Virus record (IMG/VR): IMGVR_UViG_3300025598_000121
Span: 1-30,029 of that record
DNA length: 30,029 nt
Direction: 5' to 3' (one strand)
Source: a virus
Position numbers and translations under genes: made by a program
Part shown: piece by piece, positions 1-30,029 of the stretch
How positions within the stretch are numbered: position 1 is the first letter of the stretch
How the letters are laid out: every line of letters starts with the position of its first letter
Notes under the pieces: model-generated
Told to the model about the DNA's origin: nothing
Seen by the model: the letters and a program-made list of their open reading frames with translations, nothing else
Database searches by the model: none

Positions 1-2538
1 GTGAAGAACCATGCGATGCTTCTTCACGAAGTCATCGTGCAGTTTATCACCAGTAAGATGATATTCTCTACAGATGAGTTGCATCATCTTGTCGATCTTA
101 TCATAGTTGAACTTAGTGCCGCGCTCTTTTGCCTTCAATAATGCTCGTTCTAGCATCTCTACTGCGCCGGGTTTCTCTTTACCTGTCACATGTGTTGGCT
201 TCATATCACCTTCATCCATGCGTGAAGAGAAGAGTTCTTCATAAGGATATATGGCAGCGATGTCTGTTGCTAGGGCTTTATCCAACTTAGCATCAGGTAA
301 ATCTTCCGCCTTGAGTTTTCTAGCACCTGTTGCATGGGCCATCTCGTTTTTATTGAAACGAGCGATCATAGATTTCAATGAACCAGCTGGACCATCGAAG
401 TCATGATAAGTATCATTCTTTTTTACTACTGCATGTTGTGCTTTGCCATTTTTATCGACCAGAACAACGATGTCACCACTGATACGATTTTTAATCGCCT
501 GTGCAGCAGTGAGGCATCCACCATCGAACGGACCTGAACCAAGACGGTTGATAAAGAGTTCATATACTTTATCTTTGTCATATTCAGGCTTCTTGGATTC
601 GCTGAGTTGCTTCGTAGCCTTATTATACATGCTGATGAGTTTTACCTTCTCATCGAACGGAGTTGATTCCGAAATGATAAGCGGACTGATGCGTTCTACA
701 AACTCTTTTAACTTACGACCTTTTGGTTTCTCTTTATGAAACTGTGCTAAGTTTTGCTTAGCAGTGTTCATCATACGCATGACTTCTTCGTCGCTGAGTT
801 TAGGGCTTATCGCCTGTCTCCATACTGCGAACTGTTCTTCTTCTGTCTTGTCCGGATCTAATAGGACTTCGCGCATAGGCGTCGCTCTGGGACCTTCATG
901 ATAGGTGGAACTTTCTGGATCGCTGCCTGGCGCTTTAGTGTCTTGTCTGCTCATGATGGTGAGGCTATTCAGACCAAACTTCTTGTAAGGTTCAGTACCA
1001 GACTTATCAGGACGCGTTAGATATCCGAATGCTTCTTTCTGATCAGCACCTACGATGAGCGTGACATCTGTGAAACCTTTAGCGGCCAAATCTGCTAGAA
1101 CATCATTGAGTGTAGGCTTATCTGCTGTGGGAAGGCTGAACATATCAGCATACTTAGGAAACTTCTTCTTGTATAAGTCTAGTTTCATCTCGGGTGGAAT
1201 AGGATCATCCTTACCGAAACTGCGAGATACGATGAAGAATGGTGTAGCATTCGTCTTTATCGCTTGATGTAAGACTGCGACTACGAGCGCATCATGTCCA
1301 GTATGTCCCATGCCGCGACCCCAACCTAGAACTGCTCGCTTGCCCTGAGCATGTTCCTCAGTGATCGCTGGCTTCTTGTTCATGATGCTTTCTTTTGGTG
1401 ACCATGTCTTCTGGTCGATAGTCTTGATGAACTGTCCGGGCAAGTCATTCGCGAACTTAGAACCAGGATGTGCTTGTGCGTATCCTTCTGGCTTAGTCTG
1501 CCTTATGCCACCGTGCAGACCTTTGCTGAGTTCGTCGATCAATAGTTGCTTGTGAATACCGATGGCTTCTACTGCACCTAGCGTTGCCTTCAATCCTTCC
1601 GGATCTGATAGCATCGTCTCTGCTTTCTTAGGGCTGAGTTTCGATTTAGCCCAAGCCGGAAAGTCGCTGACTAATCCTTCGATGCGTAGATGATCATTTA
1701 GATAGGAGTAGAGTTCGCCGCCTGGATTGCTCAGACCTGGCTTGGCCGCGAGATATTGGTCGATCTTCTTGGCATTTGCCTTGATGAATGTGTCTAGTTT
1801 GTTCAGACCTTCTTGATCTAATGCTACTGGATCTTCTACATAAGTCGTTCCTTGAACGATGATGCCTGGCTTGCTCAGTGCAGCAGCATCAGGATAACGC
1901 GCTTCATCGCTGGATCCCAATGCAGGGAAATATCCAGTCGCAGCGACCATCATCTTTGCGCCGGCGATCTTTTTACCTAGTTCGCTATCTACCGGTACAT
2001 GGAATGTCGTGACATTTGGAGTAAAATCATATGTATTCGCTGCCTTATTGAGTACAGGCATAGCAGTAGAACCGTCTCTCTTGGTACCAGGATAGAATAA
2101 CAATCCGCCTTCTAGGAATCCTTTGCTGGGGCTGATCTGTGCGAAGTAAGGCCATAAACTAGCAAACTGATTTGCGAAATCTTCTCTATCTTCAGGATCA
2201 CCGCCGCCAGTACCTAGAACAAACTTCTTCACATCTTCTGGATTTCTCATCACAGTAGGTGCACCTGATGCAGTCTCTGTCTTGCCCCTCTTTAGATATG
2301 CCCAAGCATTCTTGGGAATCATCATGAAGTTGCCTTTATCATCACGGCCCCAATATACCACTGGCATACCGTCCCATTTGAGTTCGATAGTCCCGCCTTG
2401 CTGGCTCATATGACGCAGCCTCTCGACCGCATGTAGGCCACCTTGAGCACCATTGCTCAACACTAAATCTTCGATGTGTTGATACTTACGACCTACTTTA
2501 GGCGCGGCTGCTTCTGTGATTATGGCTTTTATTTTCAC
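1..2538 (-). CDS. Tri-domain enzyme: ligase-like KxDG, HxGH nucleotidyltransferase, papain-like domain (3' end off the window)
   Basis: The frame stays open for 846 codons to the left edge, so the C-terminus is missing. Residues about 1-300 resemble a family of T4-like marine phages that I remember as DUF6267. They carry K54-W-D-G, like motif I (adenylated lysine) of DNA/RNA ligases, and F141-L-E-G-G-L-L, like ligase motif III. Residues about 400-610 look like a Rossmann-type nucleotidyltransferase: H412-T-G-H415 fits the HxGH signature, followed by L-I-V-G-A-D and by A-T-P-M-R556, comparable to the ISSTxxR motif. Residues about 655-730 hold C675, H702 and D713/D715 in a papain/transglutaminase-like order. 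Start: GTG at 2538, sharing GTGA with the preceding stop; an in-frame ATG at 2568 is the alternative. Domain calls come from motifs read by eye. Substrate and role are unknown; RNA end modification or nucleotide-cofactor chemistry is only a guess. Confidence 0.75.
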   Translation of the reverse strand, partial: MKIKAIITEAAAPKVGRKYQHIEDLVLSNGAQGGLHAVERLRHMSQQGGTIELKWDGMPVVYWGRDDKGNFMMIPKNAWAYLKRGKTETASGAPTVMRNPEDVKKFVLGTGGGDPEDREDFANQFASLWPYFAQISPSKGFLEGGLLFYPGTKRDGSTAMPVLNKAANTYDFTPNVTTFHVPVDSELGKKIAGAKMMVAATGYFPALGSSDEARYPDAAALSKPGIIVQGTTYVEDPVALDQEGLNKLDTFIKANAKKIDQYLAAKPGLSNPGGELYSYLNDHLRIEGLVSDFPAWAKSKLSPKKAETMLSDPEGLKATLGAVEAIGIHKQLLIDELSKGLHGGIRQTKPEGYAQAHPGSKFANDLPGQFIKTIDQKTWSPKESIMNKKPAITEEHAQGKRAVLGWGRGMGHTGHDALVVAVLHQAIKTNATPFFIVSRSFGKDDPIPPEMKLDLYKKKFPKYADMFSLPTADKPTLNDVLADLAAKGFTDVTLIVGADQKEAFGYLTRPDKSGTEPYKKFGLNSLTIMSRQDTKAPGSDPESSTYHEGPRATPMREVLLDPDKTEEEQFAVWRQAISPKLSDEEVMRMMNTAKQNLAQFHKEKPKGRKLKEFVERISPLIISESTPFDEKVKLISMYNKATKQLSESKKPEYDKDKVYELFINRLGSGPFDGGCLTAAQAIKNRISGDIVVLVDKNGKAQHAVVKKNDTYHDFDGPAGSLKSMIARFNKNEMAHATGARKLKAEDLPDAKLDKALATDIAAIYPYEELFSSRMDEGDMKPTHVTGKEKPGAVEMLERALLKAKERGTKFNYDKIDKMMQLICREYHLTGDKLHDDFVKKHRMVLH

Positions 2539-3263
2539 TTCAGCAAATCCATAGTCTTGCGGAACCATTCTCTGCTGCCCTCAGCGACCGTTTCTGGGAA
2601 ATACTTATCTTTAATAGCAGCATATTTTTCAGGATATTGCTTCAATGCATTTAATATCTTAGTGGGATTACCTAGATCACTGGCTGTAGCCGTCGGGCCG
2701 ATGATAATCTTAGCGATTCCGTCTTTATCTTTTGCTAGCAACTCTTTGGTATCTCTGTCTACCAATCCTTTATATGGACTCATCATCAATCTATCATGAC
2801 CTGCGACACGGCTGATATTAGCCAAATCTGCCCAGATACGCTGAACCGTGCCACCGCTCATCTCTTCGCTATCATAATCATGTGTATGCAGGGGCTGTGC
2901 ATCTCGTGCATTCTCTACAGCCATTAGATCCACTTGAACGATATCATTGCCAGCACCAGTAGGCACACCAACATGAACGCTGACGCCAGTCCTCGCAGCA
3001 AATAAACCCTTGTCCTTGAAATAATCTTCGAGTTCTTTTCTGCTGGTCTTTAGGTCTTTTGCTGGAAATGCTCGCATCAGTTCATCAGCATCGATCAACG
3101 CATCGATGTCACTTGATACCGTCTTCTTTCCTGCGCTGCCGATCGGATAGAGATTTAATCCTTTGGGTAGGACATGCTGAAGGTTTCGCATAGCCGTAGC
3201 AAAGTTTTCCCGCTTGATAGGGACTGCATTTGGTACTACATTTCCGCCTTCAGATAAAATCAT
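2535..3263 (-). CDS. Pol-beta-superfamily nucleotidyltransferase
   Basis: The 242-residue protein has the minimal nucleotidyltransferase signature: G42-S43, then S51-D52-I-D54 for metal binding, and a third acidic residue D112 in V-Q-V-D-L-M. Enzymes of this fold move NMP from an NTP to an RNA, a protein or a small molecule. The target cannot be read here. The spacing from GS to DxD is normal, so the active site looks intact. An AAGGA ribosome site lies 8 bases before the ATG and overlaps the stop codon of the gene before it. The 3' end overlaps the putative GTG of the tri-domain enzyme by 3 bases (GTGA), which suggests translational coupling and perhaps a shared pathway. Similar proteins exist in T4-like marine phages; I know of no demonstrated function. 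Confidence 0.8.
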   Translation of the reverse strand: MILSEGGNVVPNAVPIKRENFATAMRNLQHVLPKGLNLYPIGSAGKKTVSSDIDALIDADELMRAFPAKDLKTSRKELEDYFKDKGLFAARTGVSVHVGVPTGAGNDIVQVDLMAVENARDAQPLHTHDYDSEEMSGGTVQRIWADLANISRVAGHDRLMMSPYKGLVDRDTKELLAKDKDGIAKIIIGPTATASDLGNPTKILNALKQYPEKYAAIKDKYFPETVAEGSREWFRKTMDLLK

Positions 3264-3833: not shown

Positions 3834-4490
3834 TTATTTTCTCTCTAGTTTATAAGATTTGCCAACCAGCTTGGGAATGATGAGATGCATCATGGTAAGT
3901 GTAGAGGGCTCATCATAATCGATGAAATGCTTATCATTTGAATATAGATACGAGAACCTATGATCACGCTTCAACCAAGCTTCTAGCGCATTACATGGAT
4001 AAGCATCCCTAGTCCTGCCTAGATATTCGATCAGATCATCGCGCAACTCGCGTTCGATCTTATCGCCCTTTAGATAGACACGATATCGATGTTTAGGTTC
4101 GCGAGCAAAGGTGATCACTCCTGGAGGCATCACATGCACTTCAGTGATAACAGAATACGGACTAAATCGCCATACTTCTTTCAAGAGTTCGAGATCGTTG
4201 CTATAGAAGGCTAGGGAATCAAACTCTTGCCTAGTCGTGATATCAAACTTTTTCTTAACCTTATTACGATATTCTATTATATTTTCTACTAGAACGAGTT
4301 GTGCAGGAGTCATATTAGCAGTACGGCGATTTATGAATACGCTATCCTTTGCTTCTTCTAGCTTTGTCAGAAACTCTGCATAGGTTCGGCACCATTGAAT
4401 GCGGTTTAGATTGGGTGCCTGAACTGATACCTTATATCTATATTCGTTATAATATAGATTTTGTTTATCCTCCGATTTCAATAACACCAT
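3834..4490 (-). CDS. Conserved T4-like phage protein, unknown function
   Basis: The 218-residue soluble protein begins MVLLKSEDKQNLYYNEYRYK. Its pattern resembles, from memory, a conserved unknown of T4-like marine phages: Y-x-N-E-Y-R-Y-K near the start, F-Y-S-N-D-L-E-L-L-K mid-protein, E-P-K-H-R-Y-R-V-Y, and a C-terminal D-E-P-S-T-L-T-x-M-x-L with G-K-S-Y-K-L-E. No signal peptide, membrane segment or recognised catalytic motif is seen. It overlaps the last 26 bases of the clpA-like gene. A GGAGG lies only 2 bases before the ATG at 4490 but 5 bases before the GTG that is codon 2, so translation may start at 4487. The overlap implies translation coupled to the unfoldase. Confidence 0.7.
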   Translation of the reverse strand: MVLLKSEDKQNLYYNEYRYKVSVQAPNLNRIQWCRTYAEFLTKLEEAKDSVFINRRTANMTPAQLVLVENIIEYRNKVKKKFDITTRQEFDSLAFYSNDLELLKEVWRFSPYSVITEVHVMPPGVITFAREPKHRYRVYLKGDKIERELRDDLIEYLGRTRDAYPCNALEAWLKRDHRFSYLYSNDKHFIDYDEPSTLTMMHLIIPKLVGKSYKLERK

Positions 4491-6732
4491 TACCTCCGAT
4501 TACTGCCACTGGCTTAGGAGTCACACGGAATACGATCTCGTCATTTTCTATCATTGCTACGACATTAGAGTTCTTGATGCGCTCGAACAGGATCTTCTTC
4601 GAGAGCGGAACACGGATGAGTTCATCGATCTTGCGAGCTAGAGGACGAGCGCCCATCTTGCTATCATAACCTTGATCTGCGAGATAGTTTACCACAGGCT
4701 CTATCAGATGCAGCGTGATATCATGCTTATCCAGCAGAGACTTCTTCAACTCTTCGGTAAACTTGATAACGATCTTCTTGATAGAGAGCGTATCCAGCTT
4801 GTTGAACTTGCAGACCATATCGAGGCGATTGCGGAACTCAGGCTTGAAGAACTGCTTCAGTGCCTTATCATCTTCTCCAGTGCGTTCTTGTGTACCGAAG
4901 CCGATGTTGTTGCGCTCATTGTCTGCTGATCCAAGATTGGAAGTAAGAATGATGAGAGTATTCTTCATAGATACTTCCTTACCATTCGATCCAGTCACAC
5001 GACCTTCATCCAGCATCTGCAAGAAGATATTGAAGATATCAGGATGAGCCTTCTCGACTTCATCGAACAACAGAATAGAATGCGGATTCTTGCTCAGGTC
5101 TGAGATTAGGCGTCCACCTTGTACTTGTGAATCGCCAAAGCCTACATAGCCAGGGGGCGGGCCGATCAAACTGCTTACGCTGTGCTTCTCGCTGTACTCA
5201 CTCATGTCGTACTTGATAAGCGGCATATCCAAGTTCTTGGACAGCAGTTTAGCCAGTTCTGTTTTACCTGTGCCTGTTGGGCCCAAGAACAAGAAGCTCG
5301 CGATGGGCTTCTTATCGTTGCTGATACCAGCAAACGATACATAAACTCGCTCAAGAACCTTATCCACAGTCTCATCTTGACCATAGAGCTTGTTCTTGAC
5401 ATTCATCTCTAGGCTATGAACACGTTCGAAGTTATCGCCGCTCAGCTTATCTGCCGGGACGCCGGTGAACTTCTCGACTTGTTCATAGACAAGAGCCTTA
5501 GTGATAGTCGCATTTTTATTCATCAGGACGCGCTGCTTCGCACATGCAGCGTCTAGTAGGTCGATTGACTTATCTGGATTCTTGCGATCATGAATATATC
5601 GTGCGCTGCATTCTACTGCAGCTTCGATTGCTTCTTGCGAGATAGTGACATTATGGAAGTCATTCAATCGTGCAGAGAGGCCCTTCAGAATACGCACGGT
5701 GCTTTCTTCGCTGGGTTCATCCACGACCACCTTATAAAATCGACGCATAAGAGCGCGATCCTTCTCGAATGATTCATAGAACTCTTCCCAGGTAGTCGAA
5801 GCGATAACCTTGAGAGTGCCCTTCGTGATAGCAGGCTTGATCATGTTCGCGAAATCGACACTACCATTGCCCACGCTGCCTGCACCCTGCATCGTATGCG
5901 CTTCATCGATGAACAGGATCGCCTTCTTCTTGACGTTCAGAGAATCCAGCACCTGCTTGACCTTCTCTTCGAAATCACCGCGATAACGTGATCCAGCGAG
6001 CAGAGAACCGATCTCAAGGGAATACAACTCATATCCCCGAAGGAAGTCCGGAACCTCATCATTGACGATTGCGAGCGCGATGCCTTCGGCGATAGCAGTC
6101 TTACCCACACCAGGATCACCTACCATCAGCACATTACTCTTGAAACGCTTTGCGAGGACATTGACGATATCATCGATCTCTTTGGTACGACCGATGACAG
6201 GCTCTAGCTTGTCTTGCTTTGCTAGAGCAGTCAGGTTAGTCGTATATTCTTCTAGGATCTCATCAGCTTGTCCAGGAGTCATCGTCCCTGTATATTCGCC
6301 GCCCTTGTAAGTCTTCTGCCAATGAACGACAAACTCATTCTTGCTCACACCGTACTTCAGCAGGAAATAATGACCATGAGTATTGGCTTCATTGATGATG
6401 CTCAGAAAGAGGTCAATCGTCATCATCTGATGGCGACCAGTAAATAGAACCTGAGTGACGCTGCGGTTCATGATACGCTCTAGCGTATTCGTCTTCTTTG
6501 GTTGAGTGTTTGGTTCTTTGGATTCGATTGCATGAAGGGAGTCAAGATACGCCTCGACTTCACCTATCATAAGATCAGTATCTACATTGAAACTATTCAA
6601 GCACTTCTTGAAAGGGGGATGAGAGATGAGAGCCCAGAGAAGGTGTTCAGTCGTGCAATATAGATGATTCCTTTCCTTTGCTGCTTCGATAGCTCGTTCT
6701 ATGATGTGTTCGATTTCTGGCGAGTTTTGCAA
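4465..6732 (-). CDS. clpA: ClpA-like AAA+ protein unfoldase
   Basis: This is a 755-residue Hsp100 protein of ClpA architecture. Residues 1-140 form a Clp N-domain. AAA-1 has Walker A G205-DPGVGK-T212, pore loop around S248-R-Y-R-G, and Walker B with D276-E277. AAA-2 has Walker A G484-PTGTGK-T491, pore motif G528-Y-V-G, Walker B near 553-559 and sensor-2 G694-A-R-P-L. There is no coiled-coil M-domain between the ATPases, so it is not a ClpB disaggregase. I610-G-F612 sits where ClpA has its ClpP-docking loop, so it probably feeds substrates to host ClpP; no clpP is in the window. The start is TTG at 6732, with AGGA 8 bases upstream and no in-frame ATG near by; the ClpA N-domain alignment fits this start. 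It lies just downstream of the dnaJ-like gene. Confidence 0.93.
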   Translation of the reverse strand: MQNSPEIEHIIERAIEAAKERNHLYCTTEHLLWALISHPPFKKCLNSFNVDTDLMIGEVEAYLDSLHAIESKEPNTQPKKTNTLERIMNRSVTQVLFTGRHQMMTIDLFLSIINEANTHGHYFLLKYGVSKNEFVVHWQKTYKGGEYTGTMTPGQADEILEEYTTNLTALAKQDKLEPVIGRTKEIDDIVNVLAKRFKSNVLMVGDPGVGKTAIAEGIALAIVNDEVPDFLRGYELYSLEIGSLLAGSRYRGDFEEKVKQVLDSLNVKKKAILFIDEAHTMQGAGSVGNGSVDFANMIKPAITKGTLKVIASTTWEEFYESFEKDRALMRRFYKVVVDEPSEESTVRILKGLSARLNDFHNVTISQEAIEAAVECSARYIHDRKNPDKSIDLLDAACAKQRVLMNKNATITKALVYEQVEKFTGVPADKLSGDNFERVHSLEMNVKNKLYGQDETVDKVLERVYVSFAGISNDKKPIASFLFLGPTGTGKTELAKLLSKNLDMPLIKYDMSEYSEKHSVSSLIGPPPGYVGFGDSQVQGGRLISDLSKNPHSILLFDEVEKAHPDIFNIFLQMLDEGRVTGSNGKEVSMKNTLIILTSNLGSADNERNNIGFGTQERTGEDDKALKQFFKPEFRNRLDMVCKFNKLDTLSIKKIVIKFTEELKKSLLDKHDITLHLIEPVVNYLADQGYDSKMGARPLARKIDELIRVPLSKKILFERIKNSNVVAMIENDEIVFRVTPKPVAVIGGNGVIEIGG

Positions 6733-6761: not shown

Positions 6762-7595
6762 TTATTTATTCTGACACCGCATGATAGCTTCTACGATCTC
6801 ATCATCTATATTAGCAGGAGTTAGCGGCTTTAGCAAGACTATTTGGTCACCATATTTGCCCGTATTCTGTATGGGCATACCTTCTCCTGATAATCTAAAC
6901 GACATATATGGCTGTGTTCTCGGTGGAACGGTGATGCTGAGCATCCTGTCATTGATCGTCTTGAACTCTAATTTGGTTCCTACGATTAAATCTAGTATAG
7001 AGATAGGAATATTTGTGTATAGATCATTGCCGCGACGTTCGAACTTGAGATCAGGTGATACGACGAAATCGATGATGAGATGTGCATTGTCTAGCACGTT
7101 ATCATATCTTACCTGATTACCGGTATTGATACCTTCAGGAACCTTGATATTTATAGTGCGAGCACCTTCAGGAGTGCTGACTTGTAATATCTTCTCTGTA
7201 CCATGATAGGATTCTAACAAGCTTATGCCCAGCTGGGTCCTATATACCTGTTTACCTGGTCCTTGTTGCCTGAAAGGATCGACGAAAGGATTGGTATGGG
7301 CGCTGCCGTGACCTTGCCTGAAAGCACCGCTAAAAATATCATTCAAATTGAATCCATTGACGGTGAATTCGAACCCTCCAGGATGGTTATTAAATCCATG
7401 AGAACGGGGAGGATTGTCGTAAGCAGCCCGCTTATTAGGATCGCCCAGTGTCTCATAAGCCAGGCTGATTTCTTGGAATTTTTGTATATCACCGCCTTTG
7501 TCAGGGTGATGTTGCATCGCGAGTTTGCGAAATGCTTGCTTTATCTCATCCGGTGATGCGGTTCTAGAGATGCCTAATGTAGTGTAATGATCCAT
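6762..7595 (-). CDS. dnaJ: DnaJ-like co-chaperone (class B, CbpA type)
   Basis: The 277-residue protein starts with a J-domain (residues 1-65) holding H30-P31-D32, the motif that stimulates DnaK ATPase. A Gly/Phe-rich linker follows (about 65-115), then two beta-rich client-binding domains from about 118 to 260. The zinc-finger domain of classical DnaJ is absent, as in CbpA. It likely recruits host DnaK, since no dnaK is seen here. Its position directly upstream of the clpA-like gene suggests a joint role in remodelling or removing host or aberrant virion proteins. AAGGA lies 7 bases before the ATG at 7595. A perfect TATAAATA and an inverted repeat precede it, suggesting late and possibly structure-gated expression. 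Confidence 0.93.
   Translation of the reverse strand: MDHYTTLGISRTASPDEIKQAFRKLAMQHHPDKGGDIQKFQEISLAYETLGDPNKRAAYDNPPRSHGFNNHPGGFEFTVNGFNLNDIFSGAFRQGHGSAHTNPFVDPFRQQGPGKQVYRTQLGISLLESYHGTEKILQVSTPEGARTINIKVPEGINTGNQVRYDNVLDNAHLIIDFVVSPDLKFERRGNDLYTNIPISILDLIVGTKLEFKTINDRMLSITVPPRTQPYMSFRLSGEGMPIQNTGKYGDQIVLLKPLTPANIDDEIVEAIMRCQNK
6763..6770 (-). promoter_or_regulatory. Late promoter-like AATAAATA before clpA
   Basis: The motif differs from TATAAATA at one base and overlaps the dnaJ stop codon. Its predicted start near 6757 would give a 25-base leader to the TTG-started clpA. Confidence 0.4.
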
Positions 7596-7637: not shown

Positions 7638-8180
7638 TTACATTCCTGCCATAGCCTTGATATTCTTGATATACTCATCTTGTGGCACATCATCTCGCTT
7701 TGGTTCGATGCCCGCTAGCTGCCTCACTTCATTGAGCTTCTCATCTTCTTCTTTCTTCATCTTATATTCATTTGGATTGAGGATCATCTCGCTTCTGATC
7801 TTCTCCTCATCTGCTGGAACTTCTGTTCCTTGAATATCGACTACCCATTCTGATAGGGGACGGTCTGTGAGAGTTTCTAGGTCAGATAATAGGGTGATCA
7901 ATCTTCTAGGAACAGCCATGCGGCGATCCATCTCTACGAATACCAACCACTTGCCTGGCTCTAGTTCGCCATCACTCACGCTGGCATCTAGCACGAAGTT
8001 ATATCCACGCTCGAACCAAGATACTAAATCTTTCGCAGCCAGCTTAGAACCTACATTAAATGTGATGGTGACGATATCGTTGTCACTTCCCATCTTCGCT
8101 GAATATTCATCGACGGTCATGACCTTTCCGATCTGACCCTTCATATCCTGATAATCTAAACTCTCGTGTAAGTTTCTCAT
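7638..8180 (-). CDS. Conserved T4-like phage protein, unknown function
   Basis: The 180-residue protein begins MRNLHESLDYQDMKG. Motifs include D-L-V-S-W-F-E-R-G-Y-N-F-V-L-D-A near 52-67, W-L-V-F-V-E-M-D-R-R near 78-87 and V-P-R-R-L near 90-94. As I recall, T4-like marine phages have a close relative beside a relative of the next gene (8182-8772), so the two are a conserved neighbour pair. The C-terminal third is highly charged and probably helical or disordered. No catalytic motif or membrane segment is visible. Its AGG ribosome site overlaps the end of the previous gene, whose stop lies one base before this ATG. It could be a virion or host-takeover protein; the sequence does not decide. Confidence 0.7.
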   Translation of the reverse strand: MRNLHESLDYQDMKGQIGKVMTVDEYSAKMGSDNDIVTITFNVGSKLAAKDLVSWFERGYNFVLDASVSDGELEPGKWLVFVEMDRRMAVPRRLITLLSDLETLTDRPLSEWVVDIQGTEVPADEEKIRSEMILNPNEYKMKKEEDEKLNEVRQLAGIEPKRDDVPQDEYIKNIKAMAGM

Positions 8181-11218: not shown

Positions 11219-11581
11219 TTAATAATCTTTATCACTCATTGTGTAGTCTTGTACTTTTTCGTCGCTTATTAATAAAATGTCCTTTGGATCTACCTTACGG
11301 ATAATTTTCTCGCCGTCATCGTCTTCGATAGTTTGACCACGTGACCAACGACCGTGTGCTACCATAATATAATCACCTACTTTAATATCTTGTACCTGTG
11401 GTCCTGTTGCATAAACTCTGGCCCAGCGGGGTCGAATTCCTGCACTCTTCATATCATCATCCAGGAGGATCAATCCTCCACGGCTGAGACGTTCCTTAAA
11501 TTCCATATCATAAACAAGTATAGTGTCCTTTACTGGACGTAGCTTAGAGATTTTTGTTCTAGTAAGATTGACTTTAGTCAT
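11219..11581 (-). CDS. groES: GroES/gp31-like co-chaperonin
   Basis: The 120-residue protein aligns by eye with the Cpn10 fold: L-R-P-V-K-D-T-I-L-V at residues 14-23 (the GroES L-H-D-R-V-I-V strand), a mobile-loop region about 26-45, G-D-Y-I-M-V near 69-74, and D-P-K-D-I-L-L-I near 98-105. In the loop, R-G-G-L-I-L-L fits the GroES G-G-I-V-L segment that binds GroEL, so the docking tripeptide is likely L37-I-L39. T4 gp31 replaces GroES to fold the capsid protein; the same purpose is a fair inference here. It overlaps the preceding gene by 8 bases. No strong ribosome site is seen, so translation may rely on that overlap. Confidence 0.85.
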   Translation of the reverse strand: MTKVNLTRTKISKLRPVKDTILVYDMEFKERLSRGGLILLDDDMKSAGIRPRWARVYATGPQVQDIKVGDYIMVAHGRWSRGQTIEDDDGEKIIRKVDPKDILLISDEKVQDYTMSDKDY

Positions 11582-12044: not shown

Positions 12045-12551
12045 TTATTTCAAAAACTCATAGATAGAGAGATCATAATATAACGAATTAATCCTATGAA
12101 CACCGATCAAGTATAGAACGAAACTACTAACACTCGATCCTCTACCTACACCCCATACTATTTTATGTTCGCGCATCGTATCTACAAAGTATTTCAAATA
12201 CCTCAATAGCATGAACATATCACGTTCTTGATAGAGTAATAGTTCTTCGCCGGCTCGTTGTAGTTCAGCATCGTTTTTGCACTGATCCAATACGAATTTT
12301 GCGATATCAAGATTCCGGTACGCATCTGGTATATACCATTCATCGCGACATTTCGCGTCGAAATCTTCTATACTCAACTCTTCTGTGATATTATATGGTA
12401 TCAGTTCTGGTGTATCACGCAGATTGAGAGCATTAAACTTTATATCGGAAGTCGTGAGAACTCGTCGCAATGAACGATCAGGATCGCTCATATACATATC
12501 ACATAGATCGTTCTCATCATAGATGAGTTGTCCATATTTGTCGGTAATCAT
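12045..12551 (-). CDS. Short DnaE/Pol III alpha-like fragment protein
   Basis: The 168-residue protein ends with about 50 residues like the start of the C-family polymerase palm: Y-L-K-Y-F-V near 118-123, W133-G-V-G-R-G-S-S140, then L-I-G-V-H and Y-D-L-S-I-Y-E-F-L-K at the C-terminus. In DnaE this is followed by N-P-E-R and P-D-x-D, which carry the catalytic aspartates; here the stop codon comes just before them. It therefore cannot polymerise by itself. It may bind DNA or nucleotides, act as a decoy for host Pol III parts, or be a repurposed relic. I recall stand-alone relatives in other T4-like marine phages, so it is probably a stable gene and not fresh decay. A consensus host-type promoter lies just before it. 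Confidence 0.75.
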   Translation of the reverse strand: MITDKYGQLIYDENDLCDMYMSDPDRSLRRVLTTSDIKFNALNLRDTPELIPYNITEELSIEDFDAKCRDEWYIPDAYRNLDIAKFVLDQCKNDAELQRAGEELLLYQERDMFMLLRYLKYFVDTMREHKIVWGVGRGSSVSSFVLYLIGVHRINSLYYDLSIYEFLK

Positions 12552-27909: not shown

Positions 27910-30029
27910 CTAGAGTCCTGCTAGTTTCTTCCAATCACTGATGGATTCATTGACATCAGTCGTACCGAGAGTGTGCATACGCTCATCCTGACCAGCGATT
28001 ACTGGAACAGTTGTCTGACCGGTTGACTTAGGCTTGTTGAGACCACCTGCGATCACCTTAGTCATAAACTCGATATCTTGTTCGAAAGTAGTGTCTGAAA
28101 CTGACTTACCTGGACCAGCATCGTTAGCCCATTCGTCAAGCTTCTTATCCTTCTTGTCATCGTATTCGATATCTTTCTTTACCTTCTTGCCAGCTCTCTC
28201 AGCCTTGTCGTCATCTTTGCCCTTATGACCTTCGTCATATTCGATATCTTTGGCGATTTTCTTACCAGCCCGCTCTGCCTTGTCATCTTTCTCAGCAGTT
28301 GATTCCTCGGACAACATCGCCATCTTCTTGTAGAGATTTGCGAAAGAGAAGGATTCTTCTACTTTTTCATCATCACACTTGCATGGATCACAATGGCATT
28401 CATCGCATTCTTCGCTCTCTGCCATAGTAGGTCTGTCAGTCTGATCTGCACTTGCTAGTGAAGCATTTGCAGCAGCATTGCCTGCAGTATCATTAGCAGA
28501 GTTTGCTGAACCATTGTCCGGTGGATTATCTTCTGCCATCTGATATGTCATCTGATCTTCGGATTCGACTTCATCCATCATCTGACGACCATCGGATGGG
28601 CAACCGCATTCCATCATACCGCATTCATTGCAAGCTTCTTCTTCATCCGCATAATCATCATCGCCTTGCTGACCATTGATGCCTGATAGTCTCTTCATGA
28701 GAGACAACATCTTGTCATGATCACCTACAACTTCGATCTCACCTGGAGTGTTGATCTCGGAGGCGCCGCCCATCTGATGAGGATGCGCCATTGTTGCTTC
28801 TGCTTCATCAGCAAAGATACCCATTCCAGCATGTTTTACTAGAGCGAGTAACTTATCTGCTTCTTGATCAGTTGCATTGATATTCACTGAATCTGGAGCA
28901 CCTTGATTGCCCTTAGATACAGAGATAGATACGCCTTCATTGATGAGGTTCTCTAGTTGTCTGTCCCAGGATTCGAATGCTTTGGCGTCATAGCTGGACG
29001 TATCTTTGATCGTCTTGCCACCTAGCTTGAAGGTGCCACCCTTTGGAGTCTTGGCTAAACCTGCAGTGAATGCATTGCCTTCATCTACTTCATGATCAGC
29101 AGCATCGAAGCCCCAATCCTTCTTATCGCCGTGCTCTTCGTTATGATCATAACCTGCATGATATGCCTTGATCTCTGCTGGATCAGTTAGCTTTACCTTA
29201 GGAGGAGTGCCTGTGCCATTTGGATACTTATGAGGATCTCTTGCTCTACCATAGTAGCTGTCTGCACTTCCGCGGTCGAAGGCTGAACCATGAGAGGTAT
29301 CGTGTGCGGATTCTTCCATCTCACGGTTTACAGGAACAGTATCGTTATCATCATAGTAACCATGTTCAAGATCATCGATCACTTGATTGACCCAGATGCT
29401 GACATCGCTTGTGCCGATTTCTTCCAGATTGCCCTTGCCTTCTGCACAAGCTTCAATCGCTGCCATTATTCTGACTGGACCGTACTTAGCGATAAGGTCA
29501 CGATGACTGTGTAGGATTCTATGTCTGATAGCATTCACTACTGCGTCATATGTATTGCGACCTTCATCAAGAGCTTGATCAGCCATACCATGAACTGTTG
29601 CTGGAGGCATCTTGTCGTCAGTTAGTCCTACGATCGGAGCCATACCGTGGCACTCGTCAAGACCTAGCTTATAGCCTTCATGATATGCCCTAGCTTCTTC
29701 CATATTTTCATAGTTTCTACCACAGTGTGCATGACCCATGAGACCGTGTGATTTGCCCTCTAAATGGGCGGCTCGAATGCGCTTATTCATGTTTTCTTTA
29801 ACTGCCTTTTTATTAGTGAGCTTGTCCATGACCTTGCTCATCATAGACTTCTTTGGTGTTGCTTTTGGCTTTAGTTCATCTATAGCCGGAATCTTTCTCG
29901 GTGCGAACTGAGCATTAGGATCGATATTAGCAGGAAGATCACCTGCAGGACGATTTTGTGCTTCGAGTGTAGTCATGCTACGTCCAGCACCTAAACCAGC
30001 ACCCTTAGTATCGATGCCTGATGTTGAAG
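27910..30029 (-). CDS. Large acidic phage protein with two Cys clusters (5' end off the window)
   Basis: The frame is open to the right edge and reads protein-like upstream of the first ATG at 29976, so the start is probably outside. From that ATG it runs 688 residues. Features: two A-Y-H-x-G-Y motifs (97-102 and 271-276); a segment near 165-200 with E-E-I-G-T-S-D-V-S-x-W-V; Cys cluster 1 (C449, C452, C457, C459) and cluster 2 (C524, C527, C529, C532, C534), both CxxC-like and possibly metal-binding; and a 25-residue charged duplication (564-606). The C-terminus, with D-E-W-A-N and M-T-K-V-I-A-G-G-L-N-K-P-K, resembles from memory a conserved protein of T4-like cyanophages. It may be a virion or head-associated protein; the function is unknown. 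A hairpin follows its stop. Confidence 0.78.
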   Translation of the reverse strand, partial: STSGIDTKGAGLGAGRSMTTLEAQNRPAGDLPANIDPNAQFAPRKIPAIDELKPKATPKKSMMSKVMDKLTNKKAVKENMNKRIRAAHLEGKSHGLMGHAHCGRNYENMEEARAYHEGYKLGLDECHGMAPIVGLTDDKMPPATVHGMADQALDEGRNTYDAVVNAIRHRILHSHRDLIAKYGPVRIMAAIEACAEGKGNLEEIGTSDVSIWVNQVIDDLEHGYYDDNDTVPVNREMEESAHDTSHGSAFDRGSADSYYGRARDPHKYPNGTGTPPKVKLTDPAEIKAYHAGYDHNEEHGDKKDWGFDAADHEVDEGNAFTAGLAKTPKGGTFKLGGKTIKDTSSYDAKAFESWDRQLENLINEGVSISVSKGNQGAPDSVNINATDQEADKLLALVKHAGMGIFADEAEATMAHPHQMGGASEINTPGEIEVVGDHDKMLSLMKRLSGINGQQGDDDYADEEEACNECGMMECGCPSDGRQMMDEVESEDQMTYQMAEDNPPDNGSANSANDTAGNAAANASLASADQTDRPTMAESEECDECHCDPCKCDDEKVEESFSFANLYKKMAMLSEESTAEKDDKAERAGKKIAKDIEYDEGHKGKDDDKAERAGKKVKKDIEYDDKKDKKLDEWANDAGPGKSVSDTTFEQDIEFMTKVIAGGLNKPKSTGQTTVPVIAGQDERMHTLGTTDVNESISDWKKLAGL
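28159..28287 (-). repeat. 75-base in-frame tandem duplication in the acidic protein
   Basis: Two copies with a period of 75 bases (25 residues): D-D-K-A-E-R-A-G-K-K followed by K-D-I-E-Y-D. The second copy is partial (18 residues). The DNA differs at several third positions, so the duplication is not recent. Confidence 0.8.

Follow-up and report, generated by a model that had tools for sequence, protein, structure and literature searches.

The internal proteins of bacteriophage T4 are made with a 10-residue capsid-targeting propeptide, which is cut off by gp21 after L/I-x-E (PMC9026906). Homologues of an HxGH nucleotidyltransferase are listed in the published virion proteomes of S-CREM2, S-SZBM1, S-SCSM1 and S-SM1 (PMC10665884, PMC9602691, PMC9146016 and PMC3037559). 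Phages repair cut tRNAs with a pairing of a Pol-beta nucleotidyltransferase and a ligase (RlaP with RNA ligases, PMC7824862), and NAD synthesis is an activity of phage enzymes of the HIGH type (PMC9503650). For the polyvalent proteins, the accessible portion of the published account gives Pol-beta nucleotidyltransferases only in plasmid types, and ligase-like or HxGH domains do not figure in it (PMC5512222). T4 internal proteins, polyvalent proteins and virion cytidyltransferases are, each separately, already known. The sequence analysed here (the window) is the entire IMG/VR record IMGVR_UViG_3300025598_000121, of 30,029 bases. The reading frame at its left end probably encodes a multi-enzyme precursor of a T4-related phage that is packaged in the head, processed by the prohead protease and probably injected.

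The reading frame and its domains

The predicted precursor is encoded on the minus strand (2538..1), with 846 aa from a GTG at 2538; the frame is open at the left end of the window and its 3' end is missing. The single open reading frame at 1-2538 of the initial annotation is borne out, and the GTG start is backed by relatives beginning MKIKTILTEA. The missing 3' end was obtained by way of relatives of 78% identity (L005-L009), in which the full-length protein has 1020 aa and ends in NDYLEEK (L005:5031-8093). Residues are numbered from the GTG at 2538; so counted, K54-W-D-G, F141-L-E-G-G-L-L, H412-T-G-H415, T553-P-M-R and C675/H702/D713 are all found where they had been placed. The ligase-like and HxGH motifs are not due to chance, because there is both a Pfam match (DUF6267) and a PHROG match (cytidyltransferase). 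PDB sequence searches with the whole frame and with queries A1, A2 (the DUF6267 alignment) and A5 gave no meaningful match, and a Pfam search of the frame revealed no MPTase or other named polyvalent-protein marker domain.

Residues 17-377 (1408..2490, minus) match DUF6267 (Pfam PF19782, E 2e-11) with 44-47 bits against a gathering cut-off of 27, as do all 67 members of alignment A2. Motifs I, III, IV and V of the covalent nucleotidyltransferase (ligase/capping) superfamily are present in order. Motif I, K54-W-D-G, is invariant in 67/67 relatives, with identity as low as 18%; motif III, L142-EGGLL, has the form xGx with a single acid in 67/67; motif IV (P350-E351-G352) retains EG in 66/67, and motif V retains K372 in 66/67. 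Motifs I and III had been recognized correctly at the outset, and IV and V had been overlooked. The acid of motif III (A2 residues 143-145) is clade-dependent, with QGD in 43, EGG in 22 and KGD in 2 sequences, as if shifted by two places. The AlphaFold (AF2) model of the domain has a mean pLDDT of 87.6 and a pTM of 0.82; residues 1-16 (the leader) and 378-395 (the linker) are disordered. When the model was compared by VIA-align, 50/50 rows were ligases and the best Z was 6.0 over 180 residues, a Z below 8 being no proof by itself (Naegleria RNA ligase 6.0, REL1 5.8, Trl1 5.2, T4 DNA ligase 5.2, T4 Rnl1 4.8). The best Foldseek E value was 0.04. Since these structural scores are modest, the assignment draws on motifs and fold jointly, and on that basis DUF6267 holds as a predicted ligase-superfamily nucleotidyltransferase-like domain. 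A literature search, with subscription journals largely outside its coverage, found no account of DUF6267 as a ligase-type enzyme.

The HxGH nucleotidyltransferase, of the NMNAT/CoaD fold, occupies residues ~400-605 (724..1341, minus) and matches PHROG 3041 (cytidyltransferase, E 9e-16); Pfam CTP_transf_like is matched by 26/46 of its relatives. The signature of the superfamily, (H/T)xGH with a C-terminal (S/T)xxxR, is present together with the fold. G414, H415, G497, D499 and R556 are invariant across the 46 relatives, whereas position 412 is variable (H in 21, T in 25). The enzyme with a downstream TPMR that had been proposed is therefore upheld in its fold, H415 and R556, with H412 not an invariant residue. 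VIA-align of the HxGH model gave CoaD at Z 12.6 and NadD at Z 12.0, effectively a tie, and such a fold does not by itself fix the substrate. The cyanophage cytidylyltransferase also has stand-alone HxGH homologues in jumbo phages that infect Klebsiella, Escherichia, Pseudomonas, Erwinia and Cronobacter, among them Klebsiella phage RaK2 (L134) and Pseudomonas phage Paride (L135).

The HxGH domain is followed by a conserved LKEFI..I.PLL.E element and then by a hypervariable tail. In the window the element reads LKEFVERISPLIISE↓S (664..711, minus), the arrow marking a candidate cut, and in relatives it has the form L/I-K-E-x-I-x-x-I-x-P-L-L-x-E↓A/S. A second site of the post-HxGH element, LSE↓S, is at 598-606 (minus), and a tandem arrangement is seen in relatives, for example LKEFITKLRPLLKE↓ANTAQRLKVLKLIKE↓S. 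The variable cargo with C675/H702/D713 (274..576, minus) is papain- or YunG-like at best and is restricted to close relatives. The residues of the papain-like triad are present as described, and the fold is not confirmed: only relatives with 76-79% identity in this segment retain the triad, the model is of low confidence (pLDDT about 55-70), and the sole family lead is a Pfam YunG-like match at E 0.04 that falls short of the cut-off. A tblastn search of the papain-like and C-terminal part against 50,697 phage records gave no match. Rather than being integral to a self-contained three-part system, the papain-like part is one among many interchangeable tails. A candidate site, M-D-E↓G (211..219, minus; I-N-E↓G in L005), precedes the C-terminal helical module, which begins MKPTHVTGKEKPG (1..210, minus; phrog_10346) and is incomplete at the window edge. 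The module is common to otherwise different proteins in L014-L020. L014 was considered as a divergent version of the three-domain arrangement of the window and set aside, the likeness being at motif level only (hhalign probability 36-44%). Conserved C-terminal tags were observed on the hypervariable tails: those of L048, L050, L053, L063 and others, including L014-L020, are quite different in sequence, yet end in DYLxEK, as DYL(E/D/P)EK, and those of a second group (L059, L060, L061, L064, L065) end in KKNKYGI or a close form, (K/R)(K/R)N(K/R)YGI.

Upstream gene, fusion series and junction motifs

The gene directly upstream (2535..3263, minus), which starts MILSE↓GGNV, is predicted from GS...DxD and a third acid to encode a Pol-beta-type nucleotidyltransferase (nt) that is the partner of the precursor. 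G42, S43, D52-x-D54 and D112 are invariant in 16 sequences of the family, whose N-termini mostly read hydrophobic-x-E↓GGN or a close form. The match to Pfam NTP_transf_2 is weak (2/16, best E 0.013), Pfam RlaP is not matched, and tblastn of the nucleotidyltransferase against the 50,697 phage records found nothing. S-CREM2 gp156 was tried as a direct homologue, for which the comparison gave no support (hhalign 3%). Both this adjacent gene and the protease-site-like junctions described below had been overlooked in the initial annotation.

All collected loci were scanned with profiles of nt, DUF6267 (duf) and HxGH (hx). The domain order nt, duf, hx is constant and the gene boundaries vary, so that the conserved domain set occurs in four arrangements, one of them the fusion in the window. 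The three are separate genes in L050, L053, L056, L057 and L063; nt and duf are fused, beside a separate hx, in ten loci; duf and hx are fused, beside a separate nt, in the window, L005, L010, L048 and L049; and all three are fused in L011-L013, L051 and L052. Separate adjacent duf and hx genes were found in 43 of the loci tallied. Marine phages usually have the two as neighbouring genes without this nt, and in cyanophages they lie beside replication genes. The three-part layout as one obligate enzyme was rejected, because most relatives have the parts as separate genes.

The predicted precursor begins with the leader (GTG)KIKAIITE↓A (2512..2538, minus; MKIKTILTE↓A in L005), which resembles the T4 capsid-targeting sequence and carries a hydrophobic-x-E candidate prohead-protease site. 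A further candidate, I-T-E (AITE↓E, 1357..1365, minus; AITE↓A in L005), lies in the disordered linker at the ligase/HxGH junction. Where the domains are encoded separately, many of the genes begin with similar leaders (for example MYSFKQYLNE↓A, MQGFLDYLVE↓A, MKKFSEIIE↓A, MRFRQFIIE↓A, MKTFNGFITE↓A), and hydrophobic-x-E is present in the leaders of 38/56 free DUF6267 and 24/37 free HxGH proteins; isolated phages in which DUF6267 or HxGH bears a leader include Methylophilales phage Melnitz, Pelagibacter phage HTVC008M and Synechococcus phages S-CREM2 and syn9; leaderless homologues include the S-SZBM1 DUF6267 protein, the 187-aa cyanophage HxGH proteins and the L050 HxGH protein. In the fused proteins, [LIVFM]xE occurs within the 22 residues before the domain core at 14/14 nt/duf and 7/7 duf/hx junctions, against a background of 16% and 20% of windows, respectively, elsewhere in the same proteins (P ~2e-12 and ~1e-5, values that ignore relatedness and so overstate the independence of the sequences). 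The motif is followed by A or S at 12/14 and 5/7 of these junctions, compared with a background of 2-4%. The strict form L/I-x-E is present at only 9/14 and 3/7, and a protease broader than that of T4 at P3 is therefore assumed. The junction sequences have widely diverged (PINE, KFFE, VFE, ALLE, PLME, VVNE), yet hydrophobic-x-E is retained in 21/21, which suggests selection for the motif.

A whole-proteome leader scan of G002 found 5 leaders where 1.35 were expected from shuffles, a modest excess, and in G008 the strict pattern was found at 2/291 N-termini with 1.05 expected, no excess. Leaders resembling the capsid-targeting sequence (CTS) were also tried alone as a virion predictor in S-SZBM1 and discarded: 1/3 strict-leader proteins were detected, which is not significant and shows no enrichment. 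In the same literature coverage as above, with few subscription journals, no account was found of prohead-protease-type sites at every join of a multi-enzyme phage protein.

Links to the phage head and proposed processing

A gp21-type S77 protease (Peptidase_S77) is present in the large relatives G001, G002 and G008; in G008, the 260-kb contig to which L053 belongs, it occurs together with nt, duf and hx genes. At 30 kb the window record is a fragment, and its nearest relatives are short; G006, the sole close-relative contig searched, showed no S77 gene. In G002 and G008 the gp23-type capsid proteins carry near the N-terminus QLL(S/A)E↓SSAGTT, a like site and the candidate end of a propeptide. 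Virions of S-CREM2 contain gp154, the HxGH homologue, with its neighbours gp155 and gp156, and those of S-SZBM1 contain the homologue S-SZBM1_140 and the product of the next gene, _139. On translation both homologues start with T4-like leaders (MKNFSSFLTE↓ADEKQ in gp154, MRFRQFIIE↓AVAAA in S-SZBM1_140). S-CREM2 gp156, an NTP_transf_2 protein at the Pfam cut-off, is in virions without a leader of the CTS-like type; the S-SZBM1 DUF6267 protein is leaderless and absent from the S-SZBM1 virion list. S-CREM2 virions also contain an APH/ChoK-like kinase. A small protein that is kinase-like by eye and starts MKIQELLNE↓S is encoded near head genes in G002 (L033 124158-124736).

Several other genes of the window were noted. 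The product of 7638-8180 (minus) is assigned by PHROG to 'virion structural protein, head and packaging', starts MRNLHE↓SLDY, a hydrophobic-x-E leader, and carries RQLAGI. An acidic protein of 688 aa or longer (27910-29976, minus) ends in ISDWKKLAGL, and candidate prohead scaffold proteins end in DFKRLAGL (G008) and DIKRLAGL (G002); the similar endings may represent a shared prohead C-terminal tag. By sequence, a chaperone-like cluster lies near the virion genes (4465-6732, 6762-7595 and 11219-11581, minus), comprising a Clp-type AAA ATPase, a DnaJ-like protein and a GroES-like co-chaperonin. A 168-aa piece of DNA polymerase III alpha (12045-12551, minus; phrog_11127, E 3e-40) seems to be the split minimal Pol III known from jumbo phages (PMC7824862), and the protein encoded by G008 at 238133-238675 starts and ends similarly.

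In the proposed mechanism, the short capsid-targeting-like N-terminal leader would bring the precursor into the prohead core. A prohead protease of the gp21 type (Peptidase_S77) would then cut after Glu at hydrophobic-x-E sites in disordered linkers, that is, before the ligase-like domain, at the join of the ligase-like and HxGH domains, at the LKEFI..PLL.E element and before the C-terminal module. Several small enzymes would be freed inside the head and ejected with the DNA; the protease-site-like motifs at fused junctions suggest that the parts end as separate proteins in the phage head. A general polyprotein logic for injected enzymes, with one targeting signal and cuts by the head-maturation protease at every join, delivering three nucleotidyltransferases and interchangeable cargo at infection, has about an even chance of being correct. 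The Pol-beta nucleotidyltransferase, the RNA-ligase-like domain and the HxGH nucleotidyltransferase may act as infection begins by repairing or tagging RNA or nucleotide cofactors, for example by resealing tRNAs that host anticodon nucleases have cut and by topping up NAD. Early RNA repair or nucleotide-cofactor maintenance is tentatively taken as the likeliest job of the predicted enzymes, at somewhat less than even odds, because of the pairing of RlaP with RNA ligases and the NAD-making phage enzymes of the HIGH type; the main alternative is that they modify a host protein or RNA. Nucleotidyl transfer of the kind seen in RNA end repair, as first suggested, is in keeping with the ligase-superfamily and HxGH domains and is the likeliest chemistry; the self-contained three-part system to which it had been attributed is not sustained.

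It is unlikely that the protein is a permanent multi-domain virion effector of the polyvalent type, injected as one chain with the leader alone removed and with the internal hydrophobic-x-E motifs as uncut relics of fusion. Large multi-domain injected phage proteins are known, some of them uncut, such as the N4 virion RNA polymerase (PMC5512222), and fusion relics would account for leader-like motifs at the joins. The retention of the motif at every one of the diverged junctions, suggestive of selection, and that of the tandem site after HxGH argue against this reading. Less probable again is a cytoplasmic multi-functional enzyme of infection, for RNA repair or cofactor synthesis, in which fusion holds the partners together, as in the original view, and which is not part of the virion. 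The domain chemistry fits nucleotidyl transfer, RlaP nucleotidyltransferases of phages have RNA ligases as partners (PMC7824862), leaders are missing from some DUF6267 and HxGH homologues, and the cyanophage genes adjoin replication genes; this view is opposed by the CTS-like leaders, by the variable-tail architecture and by the detection of HxGH homologues in virions of four cyanophages by mass spectrometry, both of the two that were checked bearing leaders. It is very improbable that the leaders and hydrophobic-x-E motifs have no particular role, being just flexible sequence rich in Glu and Ala, and that the virion homologues are contamination by abundant proteins. Short motifs arise easily in linkers, and the S-CREM2 authors themselves caution that contamination is possible; on the other side are the excess over background at the junctions, the independent virion detection in four phages, and the group's capsid protein with the same motif near its N-terminus.

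Comparison with known systems

If true, processing of a head-packaged precursor would explain mechanistically why 'cytidyltransferases' have been found repeatedly in cyanophage virions, and would widen the reach of the T4 capsid-targeting system beyond single proteins to polyproteins. The ligase-type nucleotidyltransferases would gain DUF6267, a family that is widespread but unnamed. The leader and junction motifs would form a simple rule to predict injected phage enzymes, and new proteins for host takeover and anti-defence could be sought in the hypervariable post-HxGH tails.

DUF6267 shares motifs I, III, IV and V and, at modest structural scores, a predicted core fold with ATP-grasp-type RNA and DNA ligases (Naegleria RNA ligase, REL1, Trl1, T4 Rnl1, T4 DNA ligase), and differs in its ~10% identity, Z of at most 6, a large insertion and a displaced motif III acid (EGG here, QGD in cyanophages). 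As in RlaP systems (PMC7824862), a Pol-beta-type nucleotidyltransferase is coupled with a ligase-type enzyme; here, however, its partners are DUF6267 and an HxGH enzyme, the setting is probably a head protein, and it is not matched by the RlaP family of Pfam. The cytidylyltransferase/NMNAT-like proteins of purified cyanophage virions (PMC10665884, PMC9602691, PMC9146016, PMC3037559) have a homologous HxGH domain, often with adjoining DUF6267 genes, but are separate single-domain or short proteins, and the accessible parts of those reports mention no leader or processing. The polyvalent proteins, which occur in phages and in conjugative elements (PMC5512222), likewise join many effector domains in one chain, are mosaic and rapidly exchanged, and are thought to be codelivered with DNA and split; they have an internal zincin-like (MPTase) domain or are uncut, whereas a separate prohead protease is implied for the window protein. 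T4 IPI-III and Alt, with gp21-cut capsid-targeting propeptides (PMC9026906), are matched by the short leader ending in hydrophobic-x-E↓A and by the S77 protease of the large relatives. They are destined for the head and Alt is ejected into the host, a fate similar to that proposed for the window protein. Each T4 internal protein has one mature domain, whereas the window protein strings together several enzymes and has a candidate site at every join, and these enzymes are predicted nucleotidyltransferases, the T4 counterparts being ADP-ribosyltransferases or restriction inhibitors.
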